A stretch of 64,000 bases of DNA, from assembly GCA_015179025.1 (NCBI GenBank), contig WHUX01000063.1:1-64000 (forward strand), written 5' to 3'. The DNA is from Terfezia claveryi. Lineage: Eukaryota > Ascomycota > Pezizomycetes > Pezizales > Pezizaceae. This document shows positions 25,758-46,484 of the stretch, piece by piece (positions within the stretch are counted from its first letter, which is position 1; every line of letters begins with the position of its first letter). The notes beneath the pieces are model-generated. The model was not told the origin of the DNA. It made no database searches and worked only from the letters and a program-made list of their open reading frames with translations. The translations under genes and the position numbers were made by a program.

Positions 25758-27833
25758 TCATCCATCGAGATTTGGCGGTCTCCATGCAATTAAATCAAAC
25801 GCTTCTATACTCCAAGGGCCGAATTCACTTGACTTTTGGTTGGCATCTCCCCCTTTTTCAGCCTTTGCATCTTCGGCTTTCTTGATTTGTTCTCTTTTCT
25901 TTCTTTCCCGTCGTCTCGGTGTAGGGTGAGGGGGCGTAGGAGAATTCCCGGTGGTGGCTTTTCCCTTGTTGCCTGGGTCTTCGTCATTGCCTGGACCTTC
26001 GTCATCATCTAGGCAGCCATCGACTGCAACCCTATTCGTGCCTATAGCATGTGGGGTCACCTTCTTCGCCCTTTCTCCTGTTTTCCCTTTCCCCTTCTCA
26101 TGGTATCCTGGTGTCTTATCACCGACTATGACCGGATGTTCTACACCAGAAGCTTGATACGCAGAGGAGGAGCCCAGAAGTGGACCTGGGCCCGATAACT
26201 TACTATTACCATGCACCCCCACTGAATTATTGTTCTCGGAAGCCTCTTGCCCGTCATAGCCACCTCCATCTCCGCCTCGTCCAAATATTCCAGGTATATT
26301 GACTGCGGATCCCATAATCTCAGCCGAGATTTTAGGAACAGCCGTTATTGACGCCGCTTTATCCATCCTGACGCCTCGCTCATTGGCAAGAATGGTGTCA
26401 CCCAATAACAAATCCTCAGCGCCCTGGGCCATGGTCACGGAATCGGCTAAGCTTCTCCGTCTAGAGCCTCCCGTCTCTAGAAACCCAGTAAGTTCCCCGG
26501 TGGTGGATCTAGCCTCGCTTGACCTCTCTCGTTGTATGGTACTTCTACAAAGAAGCATCTTTCTCTTTGTACTTCCCAATTTTATGGTCGTTGAAGGTAA
26601 GTTCTCTGACACCCTTTTTCGACCTCTGGACGCCAGCCAGCCAGACTCGGGGGCTAATGACAGGGTGTTATCGACGGTAAAATCTGTGCCACCTTTTGTT
26701 CTATCGACAGCTAGGGTTCGGGGGGTAGTAAAGGTAGGTCTTTTATATGCTGTTTGTTTATGTGACACTATAATCTCTTCTTCGGGTTGTTGAATTCTGC
26801 CATCTTCCACCAATGCAGCCTGTGGAGGTGGAGAGCGGGGTCGCTCCCAGGGGGGGGAGTCTGTAGGAACTGATCGGGTTGGTGGATCGAAAAGAGCCCT
26901 ACGGGGGATTTGAGGAGGCAAAGGTAGGGGCGTGGATACACTCTTTGACGAAATAACCACACCCATCGAACCGCGAATCTGGAACCGACCCACATCATTC
27001 CATACTGCCGAGACTTTAGGCGCCTGAGGCATAGTAGGGGGGGCCAACGGGGAATTACTACCAAACTGGGGGATATTGCTATTTTCAAACGGAGATTCAG
27101 GTGACCCTTCTCTAGAAGATACCCCATGACGGAAAGTGGCAGAAAGCATGCGAGAGGGTGCAGTTCCGCGGCTAGCAACTGCTGTAATGTTTCGAGTGGA
27201 CTGGGCACAATGCGGAGGGGGGGTCATGTCCAATATTCCTTCAGGCGGGTGGATAGGCCGCACCGGCGTAACGGGACTTTGCTCAGCTCGAACCGGTGGT
27301 CTCATGCTTGTTACAGATCTTGTTTGTGACTCTTTCCAACGGAAATCTGGCCTAGGCGTTGGGATATTAGTAGTCCCTGATCGAAACGGGCAAGCTGAAG
27401 CATCTCGCCGCATAGAATTCCTGATGCTTGCGGAACTACTGCGTTTTTGCCCAGCAGAGCGCTTTAAGATCTCAGTCAAGCTGACATGCTCTGCATCGCC
27501 GACTCCTCCAATCTTGCGAGGCAATGCTGGGGTGTGTACCGCCTGTTGCGTTGACAGCGGGGAATCTTGCGTCGATATCTGTAGCCTCATCCCTCTTTCT
27601 GGGTATAGGGGTTGCTGTTGATGGGTGACTTGCAACTGCCTGTGCTGTCCTAATTCAGTCAGAGGTTCAATCGACGGAGCGGGAGTCCCCACCTGTCGGC
27701 GCTCTAGTATGGGAGAGATCATGGCACTCAAATCCTGAACCACCGTCCCTTTGAACTCCTCCACTGTCACTAGGTGGTGTTCAAACTCTAATTCATCGCC
27801 GGCGTTGACCTTATCCGCTCGCTGGAGATACAT
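25758..27833 (-). CDS. Low-complexity protein of unknown function, 691 aa
   Basis: One uninterrupted frame of 692 codons, far above chance, so probably real. Residues about 12-48 look folded and acidic (ELEFEHHLVTVEEFKGTVV, then LSAMISPILERR). The middle (about 50-600) is Pro/Ser/Arg-rich and predicted disordered, with basic patches such as RSAGQKRSSSASIRNSMRR and RGRKRVSENLPS. The end is Gly/Asn-rich, then highly charged (RRRERKKREQIKKAEDAKA), finishing with WSIEAFDLIAWRPPNLDG. The basic patches suggest a nuclear protein. A stop codon two codons upstream of the ATG fixes the start if there is no intron; AG acceptors just upstream leave room for an upstream exon, perhaps 28018-28239. No family recognised. 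Confidence 0.6.
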   Translation of the reverse strand: MYLQRADKVNAGDELEFEHHLVTVEEFKGTVVQDLSAMISPILERRQVGTPAPSIEPLTELGQHRQLQVTHQQQPLYPERGMRLQISTQDSPLSTQQAVHTPALPRKIGGVGDAEHVSLTEILKRSAGQKRSSSASIRNSMRRDASACPFRSGTTNIPTPRPDFRWKESQTRSVTSMRPPVRAEQSPVTPVRPIHPPEGILDMTPPPHCAQSTRNITAVASRGTAPSRMLSATFRHGVSSREGSPESPFENSNIPQFGSNSPLAPPTMPQAPKVSAVWNDVGRFQIRGSMGVVISSKSVSTPLPLPPQIPRRALFDPPTRSVPTDSPPWERPRSPPPQAALVEDGRIQQPEEEIIVSHKQTAYKRPTFTTPRTLAVDRTKGGTDFTVDNTLSLAPESGWLASRGRKRVSENLPSTTIKLGSTKRKMLLCRSTIQRERSSEARSTTGELTGFLETGGSRRRSLADSVTMAQGAEDLLLGDTILANERGVRMDKAASITAVPKISAEIMGSAVNIPGIFGRGGDGGGYDGQEASENNNSVGVHGNSKLSGPGPLLGSSSAYQASGVEHPVIVGDKTPGYHEKGKGKTGERAKKVTPHAIGTNRVAVDGCLDDDEGPGNDEDPGNKGKATTGNSPTPPHPTPRRRERKKREQIKKAEDAKAEKGGDANQKSSEFGPWSIEAFDLIAWRPPNLDG

Positions 27834-28017
27834 GTCACACTACGCCCCGTCGACACTCATGATACACCAGTAAGTTTTGCAAGCAGAAGCCATGTAGACC
27901 TAAGTGATGGCCTGGAGAGGGCCTCACCACCAACGCTCGAGTTTCGTCGTACACGATCATTCTTTTATTGTAGGTATGAAAGCGCAGTAAGCCTGCGCAC
28001 CCGCAAAGCGCACGGAC

Positions 28018-28750: not shown

Positions 28751-31700
28751 TCATAAGGATCCCTTCGCTCTAGAGGTCACCGCATCACCCAAGCTCGAAG
28801 ATGTATCCACATCCATTATTTCAATATTGTTCTTGCTCATCTGGTTTTTGGCCCGCTTATAGCGCCTCCCGCTTTCCCCCTTAGGAGCCAGTAAGATAAA
28901 ACTATACGGAGTGGCTTTGTGGCCCTCGGTAACTTGTACTTTTGTCTCTGGGATTAATTTATCCGCGGTCCTATCGGCTTCCCTTCTTACTTCGCTTTTG
29001 CGGGTTCCCGAGGTAACCAATGGCCAGTTTGTGGCGAACCTCCGTCTTTTGGTGATTCCCACGGTACCCCGAATGAAGTCCACAAGGAATTCCGCCTTCT
29101 TTCTAGCGTCCTGTTCTTGCTTGGTTGCATGTGCTCTTAACCGCAAGACCATTATCTTCACGTATGTCGCCTTATTCTCGTCAGATTCAACCAGATATCT
29201 TTCCTTCAAAGCCGTTAGAACACTGAAAATTCCTGTGGTAGGTCTGAGTCTCAAAGCAATCACTCTCTCCACAGTCCATTTTATTCCATTCAAATCTTGC
29301 GCCTCGCAATATGCTTTCATGATAACAGAATACCCAACCCGGTCGTAGTGATGCTGCCTTCCCCACTTCGATTTTGCTACTTGATTTAGGAGCTGTATTG
29401 CAGCGTGCGGTTGTCCGGCATTGATAAGCCTATCAGCAGAGTGAACTGCAACGTGATGAGTTATTGGAAGGGCGTTTTTGTCTAGGAAGTTGTAGACCTC
29501 TTCGACCCTGGCATATAATTTGTCGTACCTGAGAGTCGTACTTTCATCATTACCAGCGAATAACAGGTCCACATCATCAAACCCGGGCATCTCCCCCTGG
29601 CGCAATTTACGAGTGGAATCGCGAATAACAGAAATAATTGAGCAAGGGATTTCCAAGCCATGACATTTTGCAGCTTTAAGTACTTCGGAGACGATGGAGC
29701 TCCGAACTTTTGCCACAAGGGATGCTCGTAACGCCAGAATGATCATCTGAAACGAAGGTCTTTGCTTTTGAACCACAAATTCTTTCCAAATATGAAGTGC
29801 ATCTTCTGGTTTGTTCGCCTCAATCGCAGATGCCATTCGTAGTGCTATCGCTTCCCTATTCCGTGCGCCACTTGCACGAAGTGCTCTGTAGCTCCAATTA
29901 TATCTTTTAGATTCGTAGTGAACATTCTTCAGCAACATTTCTTTGCTGATATAGTCGAGAAGTTTGACCGAGGTTTGCATACGAAGGATCTTCTGATATG
30001 TGCGCCGTAGCAGTGATGCTGAAGCTCCGTAGTTTCGGCGAAGATCCTGAAACAAACTATTGAACGTGAAGCGATCCGGTCGGATTCCATGGGCGACCAT
30101 CTGCTGGAGCCAGTATGGGAGGGAACCTTCAGCTTCGGGTCCATTGGCATAGACCGAAGCTTTAATCATGATATTGTACGTTAGCTTGTCCGGATTGACG
30201 CCCCTCTCGAGCCCAAACTTGAAGAACGTCTCGGTATCGATATATATTTTGGCTTCTGCAAAGGCATTCAACACTGCATTAAAAGATCCTCTGGGAATGG
30301 CGAATCCCTGGCCATCCATGATGGTAAGGGTTTTTTGGAGGCTCTCCCAGTCCTTCACCTTCGCCTGCGCTGAAAGTAGGGCACCACAAGTTTTTGCTGT
30401 CCAGGATAAACCCCTATCTGTCATTCTTTTGAGGTATTTGTTGGCTTCCCCTTTCATACCCCTCTCCACGGCTGTCTGTATCATGATATGATATATCGCA
30501 GGCACCTTAGAGCGAGTTATCTGTTCCAGCCAATTGAAATGTCTGACAATTTTCTCCCAACTTCCGTCTGCTCGCATTGAGGAGAGGAGCGCGCTGTAAC
30601 ACCTAGGCGATATTGAAATTTCTCGGAAAACGGTATATCGTATCAGTCCTTGTGCCCTCTTGAATCTACCTAAATTAACATAAGCAGCAAGGACATATTC
30701 CCATGTTTCTGGTGTGAGTTTGATGCTAGGCTGATACTGATAGAAAAGGGTAAGGATTATCTCGTAGTCCAATCGTTCGAGAAGAGCTTTGAAGCAGAGA
30801 TCCAATAGCTCTCCATCAATTCCCATTTCCGACTTGCCTCCTTCATGTCCCGTGAACGGTCTGGGTGAAGGGCGCTCGCCAATGAATTTTCGAAGTTCCT
30901 CAACTGTGACATCTTCCTCAATGAACCTAGCAGGTACCTTGTGCAACCTCAAGACTGTATCATGAAGATCTTGAAGATAAGAGTCATAGTCATCATCGGA
31001 CGGGCCTCGCCTCATTTCGTCCAAAGCGGTATCCAAACTTAGTCCCATTTCGGGTTTCAAGTTAGCCCATTGATCTACCAGCTTCTTTTGTAGCTTCGCT
31101 CTTATTTCTAGCTCTTTCAGATACTTTCCAGTCTCTTTCAGTTGTATGACATCCCGCATTCGTCTCTTCCCGCGCTCGTCCAGGCTTGCTGCTACTTCAT
31201 TCCAATTGAAGAGCCTTATTGTATCTAGCCACCTCCCAGCTTCATTATACGCTCCCATTAATGCTTTAGAGGCCTGTCTCAAATCCTCAAGGTCCCTTCC
31301 ACCAACTCTATTCACATGCCAGAATTTCTCCGCTCCATCCACATCACCCTGTATGATTTTTCGAACCATATGCCGCATCCATGCAGTAGCAGTTGTACCC
31401 TCCCTAAATCTTATTTCCCGTCGCTTCTTCTGATAGTCACGTGTGGGTATAGTGGATCGCCAGACTCTCTGGCCTTTTCTGAGGGTTAGGGTTCTTCCGG
31501 GTGATCTCCAATGTGTACGATGCCACCTCCTCCTAATAGTATGCGCCCAAAATGCTGAGTGTTTCCCGGATTGTCGCACATTGATATGCTGCTGGCGCCG
31601 AGTTATATGCTTGGAACAGCCTACCACGGAGTAATCAGGTTTGGTCGTTACAGCTTCCTCCAGCGCACAATGGCTGCTGTGAAACAGTCTTCTGGGCCAG

Positions 31701-31867
31701 CAAGGTGGTTGAAAGGGGACATATCGAGGTTGCGTGGATTGGAGGCATCCAGGTATCCCCGTGTTTGATGCAGGGCAGTCTGACGTCGACTTCAACGGCA
31801 AAGTTATGAGCTGGCGAAGATATTTGAGGACTCTCAGTGATGGGGCCCTCACAACCGTGGGTTGCAT
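28751..31867 (-). CDS. Mitochondrial pentatricopeptide repeat (PPR) protein
   Basis: PPR proteins bind single-stranded RNA and act in organelle RNA stability, processing or translation. This is a single-exon gene of 1038 aa. The N-terminus is Arg-rich and almost free of acidic residues, with RRLFHSSH near residue 60, typical of fungal mitochondrial presequences. PPR helices are clearest at about residues 370-640: PETWEYVLAAYVNLGRFKRA, RCYSALLSSMRADGSWEKI, IYHIMIQTAVERGMKGEANK, SFNAVLNAFAEAKIYIDTE, LTYNIMIKASVYA and RFTFNSLFQDLRRNYGAS. A second helical block lies at about 660-930. The C-terminus is basic. It is transcribed away from the CPS gene (33309), with about 1.07 kb between them. Orthology to a named factor is not clear from sequence alone. 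Confidence 0.85.
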   Translation of the reverse strand: MQPTVVRAPSLRVLKYLRQLITLPLKSTSDCPASNTGIPGCLQSTQPRYVPFQPPCWPRRLFHSSHCALEEAVTTKPDYSVVGCSKHITRRQQHINVRQSGKHSAFWAHTIRRRWHRTHWRSPGRTLTLRKGQRVWRSTIPTRDYQKKRREIRFREGTTATAWMRHMVRKIIQGDVDGAEKFWHVNRVGGRDLEDLRQASKALMGAYNEAGRWLDTIRLFNWNEVAASLDERGKRRMRDVIQLKETGKYLKELEIRAKLQKKLVDQWANLKPEMGLSLDTALDEMRRGPSDDDYDSYLQDLHDTVLRLHKVPARFIEEDVTVEELRKFIGERPSPRPFTGHEGGKSEMGIDGELLDLCFKALLERLDYEIILTLFYQYQPSIKLTPETWEYVLAAYVNLGRFKRAQGLIRYTVFREISISPRCYSALLSSMRADGSWEKIVRHFNWLEQITRSKVPAIYHIMIQTAVERGMKGEANKYLKRMTDRGLSWTAKTCGALLSAQAKVKDWESLQKTLTIMDGQGFAIPRGSFNAVLNAFAEAKIYIDTETFFKFGLERGVNPDKLTYNIMIKASVYANGPEAEGSLPYWLQQMVAHGIRPDRFTFNSLFQDLRRNYGASASLLRRTYQKILRMQTSVKLLDYISKEMLLKNVHYESKRYNWSYRALRASGARNREAIALRMASAIEANKPEDALHIWKEFVVQKQRPSFQMIILALRASLVAKVRSSIVSEVLKAAKCHGLEIPCSIISVIRDSTRKLRQGEMPGFDDVDLLFAGNDESTTLRYDKLYARVEEVYNFLDKNALPITHHVAVHSADRLINAGQPHAAIQLLNQVAKSKWGRQHHYDRVGYSVIMKAYCEAQDLNGIKWTVERVIALRLRPTTGIFSVLTALKERYLVESDENKATYVKIMVLRLRAHATKQEQDARKKAEFLVDFIRGTVGITKRRRFATNWPLVTSGTRKSEVRREADRTADKLIPETKVQVTEGHKATPYSFILLAPKGESGRRYKRAKNQMSKNNIEIMDVDTSSSLGDAVTSRAKGSL

Positions 31868-32939
31868 TCTCTAGTTCTCCGCCCGTCAAGTTATGGGGCG
31901 TTTATCAATCCCAGTGCTGCGAAGATGTAAAATTTAAGTTTACGTAATCACGTGTGTCGAACAGTTTTGGCTTGGCAGATGTATCGGAGCTGACAAAGCT
32001 GCATGGCTAATCTATAACAAACGGCGGGGTTGCCAGCTTACGGTAGTGGGAAGGTATACATGTAGTAGAGATGAGATCACAGATATAATTATTTATAGAT
32101 ATATATTATATAAGTATATATGTGTACATACATACAGAACATATGTTCTCGTGGCCAGGCCGATTTGCAGTATGTACAGTACATACTTATATCAACCAGA
32201 CTAACACTTATATAGGTGGGATATTAGTCTGGCTGGCACAATAGCACGGATATCATAAATATAAGGTATGCCGGTAAATAATAAACCAGACTTTTAAATT
32301 TATCAAGGGCCAAGTATTTGTCTTTTAGGCCTGGTAGGACAAATAAACGGTTCCGGTCAGCCAAGCTTCGAAGATGCTACAGGATCTGATATCCACTGGG
32401 AATAATAGCATAGTAGTCTGGTTGATCAAAGGCCCAAACCAGACTTCATCGCTTGTATCTTGTGGCTTGCGTTTATTTGCCCTAGTCTCGTGCCCATTTG
32501 CCCACGTGCTTTGCTGTTCAAAAGAGGAGACCCCGCATGGCCACGTACTTGCAACCAGACTAACGACTAACTTAACGTTTTCTTGTACATTTGGCTTTGA
32601 AGTTAATAGGCAGCTTAGTCCGGTTAAGGAAACCTCCAAGTAAGGGTGCCGTAGGCTGGTTGGGGTGCCGAAGTAGGTATCGCGTGGTGGAATCCTAGTT
32701 TAGTTCTATCTTGTTATTGGTAGGCAAGTACGGTTGGATGACTCAATCCATTATCAGCTTTTGAGATTTTCCATTCGGCGGGAAAGCTTCATTAAAACGC
32801 CCCAAGACGCCGACTCGCAACTTCCCCCTCCCACAACCCAGACTTCCACAGTCCTCCAATTCGGCATCAGTCTGCAGAGAATACTGAAAAGCATTACACA
32901 ACTTAAGATTGCAGCGGGTGCAATCGATTGAACGCCCGT
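31868..32939. other. Intergenic between divergent PPR and CPS genes, with transposon-end motifs
   Basis: It must contain both promoters. Four copies of CCAGACTA or its complement lie here (32196, 32225, 32414, 32555), including the pair CCAGACTAAC / TTAGTCTGGCTGGCAC 20 bp apart at 32196-32236. These look like MITE ends, so small elements may have inserted in the promoter. An AT-rich tract with ATATAT runs is at about 32080-32140. No ORF is supported. Confidence 0.5.
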
Positions 32940-33230
32940 ATGCGGATTGGCTCCGAGTACACATCTCAGGTACTGTCTATTGTTATCTGATTACTTTTGT
33001 GGAATCCCCATACTGACTGGCCGTGGGTATATAGGATTACCTTTCAGGCACGTACTGCACTCTTCTGGCTGCATTGAGATTGTATCGGCGTCCTCTGCGG
33101 CCTGTGGATTCATTCCAAAGCTCATGGTTAAAAAGAAAAACAAATTTTCTCGTAATCGCATCATCCACGCCTAAAGACTAACAAAATTTTCTCCTGTTTA
33201 GACCACATCTGGAAAAATAGCTCCCATTAA
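32940..33230 (+). CDS. Arginine attenuator peptide (AAP) uORF in three exons
   Basis: In known fungi the AAP stalls its own ribosome when arginine is high and blocks translation of the downstream CPS small subunit. Here exons 32940-32969, 33035-33047 and 33202-33230 join to a 23-codon peptide whose last 17 residues are YTSQDYLSDHIWKNSSH. This matches the conserved AAP core (S/C-Q-D-Y-L/I-S-D-H-L/I-W-K/R), including the Asp and Trp needed for stalling in Neurospora and yeast. Intron 1 (65 nt) is GT-AG with CTGAC as branch point. Intron 2 (154 nt) starts GCACGT and ends GTTTAG after ACTAAC, so it would be a GC-AG intron. The exon 2-3 junction splits the Asp codon. The stop codon is 78 nt before the CPS start. 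No unspliced reading gives the core motif. Confidence 0.85.
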
Positions 33231-33308
33231 GACGAGTCATAGCTCACCGTTCTTACTACACACTTCAACTTTCTTTCGACATCAATTCATCTATAGCTTG
33301 TATCAAAA

Positions 33309-34717
33309 ATGTTTGCAGCACGTCGATTGTTTCAGCAAAGCAGGCATGCTCGTTCACTTGCAACTGTCACTGGCTCGACTGGTCGGCAAATGCCGCAGGT
33401 TGCAAGAGATCGATCGACTCCAATTTCTCACGATCGAGCAACCTTCACAATCAGAGTAAGTATTTAGCAGGAAATGGATCAATTCCGTATCAAACTGATT
33501 ATATTCTGTAGGATGGTCCTGTTTTCCATGGTAGATCTTTTGGGGCACGTACCAATATCTCCGGAGAGGCTGTGTTCTCTACGGCTCTTGTCGGTTATCC
33601 AGAATCGATGACCGATCCCTCTTATCGTGGCCAGATCCTCGTGTTCACCCAACCATTGATTGGGAATTATGGAGTGCCCAGTGACTCCCGCGACGAACAT
33701 GGACTGTTGAAATACTTCGAATCGCCAAACATCCAAGCTTGTGGTATTGTGGTTGCCGATGTTGCATTGAAGTATTCACACTGGACCGCTGTTGAATCCT
33801 TGGCGCAGTGGTGTGCACGGGAAGGAATCCCAGCTATCAGTGGAGTCGATACCAGGGCCATTGTGACCTACCTCAGGGAGCAAGGTTCGTCTTTAGCCAG
33901 AATTACGATTGGAGAAGAGTATGATGCCGATCAGGATGAAGCCTTCGTGGATCCCGAGCAAATCAACCTTGTGGCTAAAGTCTCAACAAAAGCTCCCTTC
34001 CACGTCGCCTCCACCGGTGATCTCCATGTTGCTGTAATCGACTGTGGTGTGAAGGAAAACATTCTCAGGAGCTTGGTCTCTCGCGGGGCCAGTGTGACTT
34101 GCTTTCCCTGGGATTATCCAATTCACAAGGTCGCCCACCATTTCGATGGCGTGTTTATCTCCAATGGACCCGGCGATCCCACTCACTGTGCACCTACCGT
34201 CTACCACCTCAGCAAACTCGTCGAGTCCTACCCCGGACCCATTATGGGTATTTGTCTTGGACATCAGCTTCTCGCATTATCTGCAGGCGCCCGCACAGTC
34301 AAATTGAAGTACGGAAACAGGGCTCACAACATTCCAGCTCTCGACATGTTGACCGGGCGTTGCCACATCACATCGCAGAACCACGGCTATGCTGTGGATG
34401 TCGGCTCCCTGCCAAAAGATCAATGGAAGGAGTATTTTGTCAATCTAAATGATGGGTCTAATGAGGGGATGATTCACCTCCACAAACCGATCTTTTCTAC
34501 CCAATTTCACCCTGAGGCAAAGGGTGGTCCACTCGACAGCTCATACCTGTTCGATAACTACCTAGACACTGTTGCTAAGTACAAGGCTCAACGAACATCG
34601 CCGGCTGAACGACCCAGTACAATGTTGAAGGATATATTGGGTAAGGAGAGAGTGGGTGTTGTCCCGGAAAGGGGTATTGCAGGGAGTATCGCGGCCACTG
34701 TAGGGGCAACCGCATGA
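33309..34717 (+). CDS. cpa1: Carbamoyl-phosphate synthase, arginine-specific small subunit
   Basis: Glutaminase subunit that feeds ammonia to the large subunit for carbamoyl phosphate in arginine synthesis; mitochondrial in filamentous fungi. Exons 33309-33455 and 33512-34717 (intron 56 nt, GTAAGT...CTGTAG) give 450 aa. Exon 1 encodes a basic presequence ([17 protein letters not shown]). The N-terminal CPS domain includes [20 protein letters not shown] and NYGVPS. The class I amidotransferase domain has [27 protein letters not shown], the nucleophile in [37 protein letters not shown], and [13 protein letters not shown] supplying His and Glu of the triad. All are intact. The AAP uORF just upstream shows it is the arginine-pathway enzyme (cpa1 / arg-2 type), not the pyrimidine one. 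Confidence 0.97.
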
Positions 34718-42430: not shown

Positions 42431-45400
42431 ATGTCAAACGCCCACGACCAACTTGCCGCTCGCATCACCACCGCACAGCGTAGAGAAGCAGCCCAGTTTC
42501 TATGCCACAAGTGCCCTCTGCATTTTCCTTCCGAACTGTCGTGGTGGAGACATCTAAAGGACTCGCACCCCGATACCTTAGCGGAGTTCACTACCGAGGA
42601 AGCTCTGGCAGATTATCGTGCCCTGAAGAGAGAAGAATGTAGGATCAGCAAATTGTAGGTGTTTTTTTGCTTTCCGTTTCCTATACGGAGGTGGAGCCGC
42701 AAATTGAATATACTGGCTGATGGTTGCTCAATGCATATGCAGGCGTTCGAGAATTGAGCAACAGCAGCAGTCTGAGAACTCGGCAGAATGGAGTCAGCCA
42801 GGGCAAGGACAGGTTGCCCGTGGATCCAGGGCCGCCAGAGTTGGTATAACCAAAGGACTGGAAACCCTCCGCTTAGAGAAACAACAGTCTGAGGGTAACA
42901 AAATTAAGGGGGATGACGAGGAGGACCTGGAAATGGCAGAATCTCCATCCTCTCCAATTAGATCTTCTGGGCGGAACAGACAAGCCCCACAGGCAGATGG
43001 AGGTAACAGACGATTTCGCACAGTGCAGCAGAAAAATCTGAGTGGAGGACGAGGCGGAGGTGAGTCCTATTTATACATAGCGTTATATTCATATTTGCTT
43101 TTTCTATGTGCTTCTGATGCTGATCAAGATCCTGGGACAGGGCGTCGTACTAAAGAACCTATTGATCCAGATTTCGACCGGAGTCTCCCAGAAGCTGCCG
43201 GGGCTAAACAAACTCGCCGCCTCTTTGATCCATCACAGCCGCTTAGTTTGTTCAAAAATGAGGATAGTACTAAAAGGCTTGACAACGCTCCCGCTGCAAT
43301 CGCTAGTAATACTGCCCAGGCCTCTTCCAGAGCACGTGCTCCGCGGGCGAAGAAGGAAAATAAAACACCCAAAGGGCGTGGTGAAAAATTAACAGCTTTA
43401 GCAATTTCCGCACCCGAGGTACAAAGCCGTGAGGCCGGTAAACACTTCATTATGCGTAACCTTGGGCATGACACACAAGCTCAGCAATCGGTGCAACTTG
43501 TGCTACATCCCCAATCGCAATCACGAATGGAGACCGAAGATGGATCGATCTCTGGAGATGACCCAAGCCTCAAGATGGTGAGACAGCCGGAGACTAGACC
43601 AATTTCTGGCGATCAACTTTTATCAGAAGTGAAAGGTATCTACGCAGGTCTCGTTATGGTTGAAGCCAAGTGTGTAGAGGTAGACGGAAAGCAAGCAGCT
43701 CAAGCAAAGGCCATGGAAGTTGAAGGGCTGAAACCACCACGTTTGACAAACGAGCAATGGCAGGCATTAATTGCGCTACATAGGACTCTGTTGCACGAAC
43801 ATCATGACTTTTTCCTTGCATCGCAGCATCCTTCATCTTCTCAAGCTCTTCGCCGGCTGGCGGCTAAGTATGAAATGCCAGCTCGAATGTGGAGGCATGG
43901 CATTCATTCCTTCCTCGAACTACTTCGGCATAGACTACCATACTCGTTGGAGCACATGCTGACCTTCATTTACCTCGCATACTCTATAATGGCTTTGCTG
44001 TACGAGACCGTTCCTGCATTCGAGGACACCTGGATCGAGTGTTTGGGGGACTTAGGGAGATACCGGATGGCGATAGAAGACGACGATATAAGAGACAGGG
44101 AAGTTTGGACCAATGTTGCAAGATCATGGTATTCGAAAGCTGCAGACAAGAAGCCCACAGTTGGAAGACTCTACCACCATATTGCCATTCTGGCAAGACC
44201 AAACGTCCTCCAGCAACTCTTTTTCTATTGCAAGTCTTTGACAGTGGGGCAACCATTCGCGTCGGCCCGAGAGTCGATACTCTCTTTATTCGAGCCTATT
44301 CTTTCCAGCAAATCTACAGCAAGCCGCAGCCAGCCTGTGGACGTGAAATTCATCACTCTACACGGAATCTGGTTCACACATACTGACTTGGATCGTTTCG
44401 ATGGTGTTTTGGACGAATATATGAGTTTGTTGGACAAGCACATCAGCAAAGTGGCCGAGAAGTGGACTGTGTCAGGATGCCTAGTCGCAGTTTGCAACAT
44501 TGCAGCGCTATACCAATACAATTCTCGCACAAGTAAGCTTAGACAAGCTTGGAGGGAAGGTACTGTCACCATTAAGGAGGAAGAAATGGAAAATTCTACG
44601 GCATTGAATATTGGTGAGACCACAGGTAATGAGTATGATAGCCTTCTCCCTCCGCTCCCCCGCGAGGCTTCCTCAGAGCATGCTACCCCGCTTCTTGCCA
44701 TCACTTCCGGCAAAGCGCAAAGTCCGTTTAATGAGACCAAAGCGTCAGTGGCTGCTGCAATCAAACAAGAGGCAGGAGATGAAGGTTCCTGGGTCCCTTT
44801 GGAATATGCCATAAAAATGAGCTTCTCAATTCTCGGGCTTGTCCTTGAGCGCGTCAATGACAACCATGTTCTTCCTCATGTTCACACTTTCATGGTCTTT
44901 CTTTATCATATGACAAACTCGACTCCTGCAATGCGACTTATCGAGCAAGATTTTCCCTTTGAGAGTCTGGCTAGTTTTCTTAATTCGTTGATTATGGCAG
45001 AAGCAAGGTCATTGAGCCAAGTGGAATCGACAATCCATTTCGAACTTGATGAGTTCCCCAAGAGGCAAGGACGCCCACTTCCTGAGGATTGGACTTTACG
45101 AGGGCTTGAATTCACTAGAGATTATTTCCCACCAGGCTGGATAGAAGGGGCTAAGGTCGATGATGAGGAAAGGCTGCTTGAGCTCCCTTCCTTTCTTGCA
45201 GCAAGAAAGGAGAGAATTCTTTGGTTGGGTTATATGATAGCGAAGGTGAGCAGTGTAAGACGAAGGCTTGCACATTCAGCATTGACCAGTGTGATAGGGC
45301 GGTGATTGGTTAAGCTACAGCGCAAAGACCGAAACATTTTCTGTACACAGAGGTGTTCTTGAGCGAATCAAGGCCTACAAAGAGGCGGCACAGATTAAGA

Positions 45401-46484
45401 AGGAAGAGGAATGCATGCCATATATCAAACCCGAGGCAGAGTCGGATGTGGAAATGGGAATTCCCTCCATTGCTGAAGATGACTTTGGCGACTTCGAAGA
45501 TCTGGAAAAATCTGAGGATCTTCAGCAACTCCGTGCGTTAAAATTAAAGCAGCGTGAGCTCAAGACTCAACTACAATCCGGGGGAACCTTGGGGGAGGAA
45601 GAAATGTACCATGAGTCCAGCCGCAGCAGGGTCTCTGCTCGGGAAGCTCTTCGACCAAACTTCACGATTCTCGTAGTCGATACAAATTTCATGCTTTCGT
45701 CCTTGGACGTATTTAAGTTAATGGTTGTAAACAATGATTGGTCTGTCGTTGTTCCTAACACGGGTATGTTCCCACAATTCAGTGCTGACTGCGGCCTAAA
45801 TACTCGGGAAGGGGAGCCTTACTAAATTTTACTATAGTCATGACAGAATTGATGGGGCTCACCAGCTCCCCCACTGTGGGTTCTGCCGCCAGTAACGCTA
45901 TCGCCGCTATTCAGGCCAGCATCGTTGCCAAAAAGGACCTGCGTATAATTACTGCCAAGGGCAGTAACGTCACCAACATGGGCACGAATATGGGATTCTA
46001 CAAAGAGAAATTAGAGGAGTATTACGAAGGCGCCGACATGAGCATTGATGATGTGATAATCGCCATCACCGAAGCCCAAGGGAAGCTTCGTGTCGAAATG
46101 ATGCGAGCGAATGGAAATGATGCTGGAACTGCCCAACCTGCAGTCTTGGTCACTGATGATCGAAACATGCGTGTGAAAGCGACTGCAAAGAAAATTCCCG
46201 CACTTTCTGCTTCGGCAGTGAAGGCTATACTCCAACCCCAGGCTCCGAAACTTCAAGCATCAAGAATGAAAAGGAAACCAACCGTTACTACTACCCCTTT
46301 AGCGAGTCTGAGGCAAACTTTCCCCGAAGCTACTGAAGAGGATCTTCTAAATGCTCTTCAGGAGGCGGATGAGAATCTCGAAGTTGCAGAAATGAATCTA
46401 TATACTAACATTGCAACTAAGTCACCCGGTATGCAAAAACGAAGGCTAACAAAAGAGCAAGGGAGGGTGGCCGGAGCAGGATGA
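42431..46484 (+). CDS. SMG6: EST1/SMG6-type protein with C2H2-like finger, EST1 domain, PIN and CUE domains
   Basis: Related to SMG6/EST1A, which cuts mRNA in nonsense-mediated decay and is linked to telomerase in some species. Exons 42431-42654, 42743-43059, 43129-45245, 45328-45763, 45838-46484 are in phase and give 1246 aa. Residues about 20-45 contain CHKCPLHFPSELSWWRHLKDSH, a C2H2-like finger. The EST1 helical region (about 385-560) has EHHDFFLASQHPSSSQ, TWIECLGDLGRYRMA and VGRLYHHIAILARPN, the 14-3-3/TPR-like core and DNA/RNA-binding part. PIN (about 997-1150): FTILVVDTNFMLSSLDVFKL, VMTELMGLT, SIDDVII and VLVTDDRNMRVKA, keeping the acidic metal-binding residues. A CUE-like segment follows (about 1183-1220: LASLRQTFPEATEEDLLNAL), suggesting ubiquitin binding. 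Intron 2 (69 nt) has no stop and is in frame. The intron 3 boundary (GTGAGC...CAAAG) is the least certain. ATG 42431 is the first in frame. Confidence 0.9.

Follow-up and report, generated by a model that had tools for sequence, protein, structure and literature searches.

In Terfezia claveryi, placed in Pezizaceae, the code for a predicted arginine attenuator lies in three pieces upstream of the gene for the small subunit of CPS, and very probably regulates the enzyme only in those mRNAs from which both of two predicted introns have been spliced out. The locus sits in the first 64,000 nt of contig WHUX01000063.1, the whole of which was analysed here and is called the window, within an assembly of 72.6 Mb in 794 contigs. 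The features of the leader and gene are as follows.

32739 to 32745, plus strand: TGACTCA, one of five TGASTCA sites in the 64 kb.
32940 to 32969, plus strand: predicted uORF exon 1, ATG...CAG, encoding MRIGSEYTSQ.
32970 to 33034, plus strand: predicted intron 1, 65 nt, CAG/GTACTG, branch site ACTGAC, end TATAG; acceptor second of 15, intron rank 7 of 212 candidates.
33027 to 33201, plus strand: competing candidate intron, TGG/GTATAT, sharing its acceptor with intron 2; rank 1 of 212.
33035 to 33047, plus strand: predicted exon 2, 13 nt, GATTACCTTTCAG, encoding D-Y-L-S plus one base.
33048 to 33201, plus strand: predicted GC-AG intron 2, 154 nt, CAG/GCACGT, branch site ACTAAC, end TTTAG; acceptor best of 15, intron rank 2 of 212.
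33202 to 33230, plus strand: predicted uORF exon 3, completing D, then HIWKNSSH and TAA.
33309 to 34717, plus strand: CPS small subunit coding sequence, 450 aa plus stop, 100% identical to P0001 (Terfezia claveryi).
33456 to 33511, plus strand: GT-AG coding intron of the CPS small subunit, 56 nt.

Joined, the predicted exons 32940-32969, 33035-33047 and 33202-33230 read MRIGSEYTSQDYLSDHIWKNSSH, followed by the stop codon TAA at 33228-33230. The coordinates that the initial annotation had given for the pieces, introns and stop agree with the sequence to the base: intron 1 stops directly 5' of GAT, an Asp codon, and intron 2 interrupts the following Asp codon (G/AC). That intron 2 starts with GC and not GT is a point absent from that annotation.

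The CPS small-subunit gene lies downstream, its ATG at 33309 standing 78 nt after the uORF stop. P0001, to which its product is identical, is a class I glutamine amidotransferase-like protein, and the ORF is 95% identical to Tirmania nivea P0002 and 80% identical to the homologue P0013; the putative assignment as the arginine-specific small subunit follows from the names of homologues, such as P0013, and from the leader. The TGACTCA at 32739-32745, which we take to be a Gcn4/CPC1-type site, suggests that transcripts start downstream of 32745, which would make 32940 the first ATG, and does so weakly because five such sites occur in the window. On the minus strand, a 1039-aa open frame with PPR repeats (28751-31870) is divergent from the CPS gene, with a common upstream region, and a further 693-aa open frame (25758-27839) had no Pfam match at E 0.001. 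On the same contig, an Est1 DNA/RNA-binding domain frame (42708-45305) and a PIN domain frame (45789-46484) are likely to form one Est1/Smg-type gene spanning 42708-46484. An ARAGORN scan of the window gave no tRNA.

The arginine attenuator peptide counts as a textbook case of an arrest peptide, and the joined peptide is assigned to it by profile and position, its function being predicted. Against Pfam PF08252 (Leader_CPA1, cut-off 18.5 bits), it reached 48.3 bits (E 6.4e-13), the same bit score as that of P0083, an annotated leader-CPS fusion of Pseudogymnoascus. A further match, at E 1.6e-4, was to PDB 2xl1_A, entitled 'arginine attenuator peptide', which we take to be the Neurospora crassa arg-2 attenuator, with 11 of 15 aligned residues identical and the run TSQDYLSDH shared in full. 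Both matches uphold the reading of the peptide as a putative arginine attenuator. The 2xl1 attenuator sits upstream of the CPS small subunit, as in Terfezia, whose frame differs in being in three pieces. The Saccharomyces cerevisiae CPA1 leader shares SDHIWK and the ...SSH end with the Terfezia peptide and, unlike the three-piece frame here, is one continuous frame. With residues 1-40 of P0083 as the query, two proteins were obtained from five candidates, P0083 itself and P0121; both are predicted fusions with the same PF08252 leader as Terfezia, compared here as proteins, in which the gene models fuse the leader to the enzyme. The core pattern QDY[LI]SD was held by P0083 alone among the 120 CPS homologues listed. 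A six-frame search of the whole 72.6-Mb assembly gave no contiguous PF08252 match over the cut-off; because none of its five scored candidates passed (best 16.8 bits, with the exon 3 region alone, one of the five, at 13.3 bits), the profile was satisfied in this search only by the joined exons.

A 12-residue core motif, [FY]T[SC]QDY[LI]SDH[LI]W, a hand-written consensus for the attenuator core, was searched for, at most two introns being allowed (GT-AG or GC-AG, each 45-200 nt long). The real leader reached 12/12 with two introns, 8 with one and 4 with none, in agreement with the earlier claim that the core appears only once two introns are removed, and exactly one pair of such introns yields it in full; restricting the donors to GT lowered the two-intron maximum to 9/12. 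None of 400 dinucleotide-shuffled leaders held the full core (best 8, reached by one shuffle), nor did any of 268 other pieces of the window (best 7); the core in the leader is more than chance. Use of a hand-written motif makes the test somewhat post hoc; the Pfam and PDB matches are independent of that motif.

For splice-site scoring, an intron model was built from the window, read on both strands, together with 79 loci of the same genome (L082-L160, several of which overlap). From 100 acceptor groups, it retained 44 introns whose posterior exceeded 0.8, the CPS coding intron among them. Donors in this set were GTNNGT in 32 of 44 and GC in two, the median branch distance was 19 nt and the median length 59.5 nt. 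The model was limited to introns of 45-150 nt that have coding flanks and fit a preset NCTRAY branch pattern, the longest of them being 134 nt, so the rarity of a 154-nt leader intron cannot be judged from it; such a length would be in keeping with Cryptococcus neoformans, where the sections concerned give UTR introns as longer than usual, averaging 118 vs 63 nt (PMC7049704).

In the leader, where 212 candidate introns and 15 AG acceptors were scored, the acceptors at 33201 (14.0) and 33034 (13.7) were the best two, followed by 33047 (13.6) and a fourth at 6.0. The branch sites lie at 25 nt (ACTAAC, intron 2) and 23 nt (ACTGAC, intron 1), and acceptor and branch were properties unused in finding the peptide. 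Intron 2 scored 18.5 and intron 1 scored 15.3, with donor 32982 joined to acceptor 33034 just above the latter at 15.4. The donor of intron 1 fell below all but one of the 44 model introns on one matrix and below all 44 on another; its U1 pairing (-7.1 kcal/mol) is at least as stable as that of 77% of model introns because exon 1 ends in CAG. Intron 2 has the make-up of a putative GC-AG intron, with CAG/GCACGT, ACTAAC at 25 nt and TTTAG, and its GC donor, of a class that is rare in fungi, pairs with U1 at -4.5 kcal/mol, at least as well as 25% of model introns.

Several further sequence elements lie within the predicted exons and introns. At 33042-33053 (TTTCAG/GCACGT), an acceptor-like sequence is joined straight to a donor-like one, and exon 1 also ends in CAG; a zero-length recursive splice through this junction would yield the exon-skipped form. 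Intron 2 holds an exact 10-nt direct repeat, AAATTTTCTC, at 33142-33151 and 33184-33193, the second copy just past the branch site. Intron 1 holds GATTACTTTTGTG at 32989-33001, identical to exon 2 at 10 of 13 positions; 27 of 2000 intron shuffles equalled this, and its reading as a decayed exon 2 duplicate was left as possible chance.

No mis-spliced form keeps the full core. If intron 1 were kept, or donor 33027 used, a 16-aa uORF would end within intron 1. Intron 2 kept would give 58 aa, the alternative donor 33052 would give 21 aa, and acceptor 33047 with intron 2 kept would give 19 aa; skipping exon 2, whose 13 nt are 3n+1, would shift the frame into a 127-aa uORF that overlaps the main ORF, reaching 247 nt beyond the first base of its ATG. 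PF08252 scores covered the 58-aa and 21-aa forms, the 16-aa form being too short for scoring; through the first half of the core alone, these two passed by a narrow margin (19.1 and 22.0 bits).

The competing intron at 33027-33201, which would remove exon 2, scored 19.6 vs 18.5 for intron 2, a point against the two-intron reading, and the form spliced in this way would carry MRIGSEYTSQVLSIVI with a 143-nt gap to the main ATG and lack the core. Its rank invites a reading that we regard as unlikely: that two mutually exclusive leader forms compete, their ratio setting the share of arginine-sensing mRNA. Donors 32970 and 33027 would decide whether the 13-nt exon is included, so that the gain of the ribosomal feedback loop would be set in the nucleus, with nitrogen or symbiotic state perhaps as the cue. 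Intron 1, if removed first, would destroy donor 33027, because that donor lies between its branch site and acceptor, and the attenuator would result; use of 33027 first would lose exon 2 and leave the 16-codon uORF without the core. Both donors required for the attenuator are non-consensus, donor 33027 pairs with U1 (-5.4 kcal/mol, at least as well as 52% of model introns) more strongly than donor 33048 does, and a nutrient-switched 20-nt microexon is reported for Trichoderma Xlr2 in the passages concerned (PMC11121469). However, any 400 nt will hold many candidate donors, the donor matrix was built on 44 introns, and donor 32970 pairs with U1 more strongly than 33027.

The same unusual donors would also suit a relic, in which transcripts of a former attenuator have come to begin past exon 1 or to keep their introns, and no peptide is made. 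We consider this very improbable, since a relic should decay, whereas here the three pieces still carry an intact 12-residue core and stop codon, and no branch/acceptor pair in the leader surpasses the two required. Equally improbable, in our estimate, is an assembly error in which the GC donor is truly GT, intron 2 is ordinary and only the short exon is unusual. The GC donor does rest on one copy, and GT there would give GTACGT, a donor found in 3 of 44 model introns; set against this, GC-AG introns seem to be real in this genome (2 of 44 model introns, the clearer being AAGGCGAGT in locus L137) and make up 1.009% of fungal introns on average (PMC7072748, Table 1). A structural RNA switch in the leader was set aside because the fold of 32900-33320 was no more stable than that of shuffles (z +1.68; 97 of 100 shuffles at least as stable), and the one match of an Rfam scan lay below the gathering score and outside the leader.

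Under the preferred reading, the leader would act as an arginine attenuator of the ordinary kind, its frame being complete only when the 13-nt exon is included, and the splicing, stalling and decay that we infer would run as follows. In spliced mRNAs, scanning ribosomes would often pass the poor uORF start, which has C at -3, and make the enzyme from the main ATG, which has A at -3. At high arginine, those ribosomes that translate the uORF would halt on its stop codon, their exit tunnel occupied by the peptide; scanning to the ATG 78 nt further on would be blocked, and the mRNA would become open to nonsense-mediated decay. With the coding intron of the CPS gene 225 nt beyond the uORF stop, an exon junction further downstream could flag the stalled mRNA for decay. 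The essential Asp is kept, D11 of the joined peptide being the first codon of the 13-nt exon and presumably corresponding to CPA1 D13. For CPA1, the parts of PMC7969011 concerned describe an inefficient uORF context, making a poor start common to both uORFs, and stalling at the uORF stop at high arginine, an effect lost with D13N. Leaky scanning and decay by NMD have been added to the attenuator mechanism, as outlined in the relevant passage of PMC11550727, and the Cryptococcus CPS mRNA is described, in the section concerned, with strong uORF occupancy that rises 5-fold in a upf1 mutant (PMC7049704).

The difference from known attenuators appears to be the exon structure, making this a known regulator in what looks, on sequence grounds, like an unusual and fragile form. 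Among the literature matches listed, no three-exon attenuator was apparent from titles and the starts of abstracts; Hood, Spevak and Sachs 2007 lay outside that scope, and an earlier description is possible. A literature search found no paper that prints the core letters. The nearest likeness for exon 2 is the 20-nt microexon of Trichoderma Xlr2, also very short, from a filamentous ascomycete and deciding function by its inclusion; unlike the Terfezia exon, it lies in the coding sequence of a transcription factor, has canonical donors and was shown by RNA-seq, and the Xlr2 passages mention no leader peptide (PMC11121469). According to the same passages, functional microexons were undescribed in filamentous fungi before the Xlr2 exon; they also note predicted microexons for three fungal genes and, in S. 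pombe, one that is functional (PMC11121469).

Only after exact splicing through a 13-nt exon, followed by a GC-AG intron, does the attenuator core of Terfezia claveryi become readable. Since a six-frame profile search misses this leader, surveys that report leader loss in fungi may have to search across splice junctions. One short leader would link splicing to nascent-chain sensing, should its isoforms vary.
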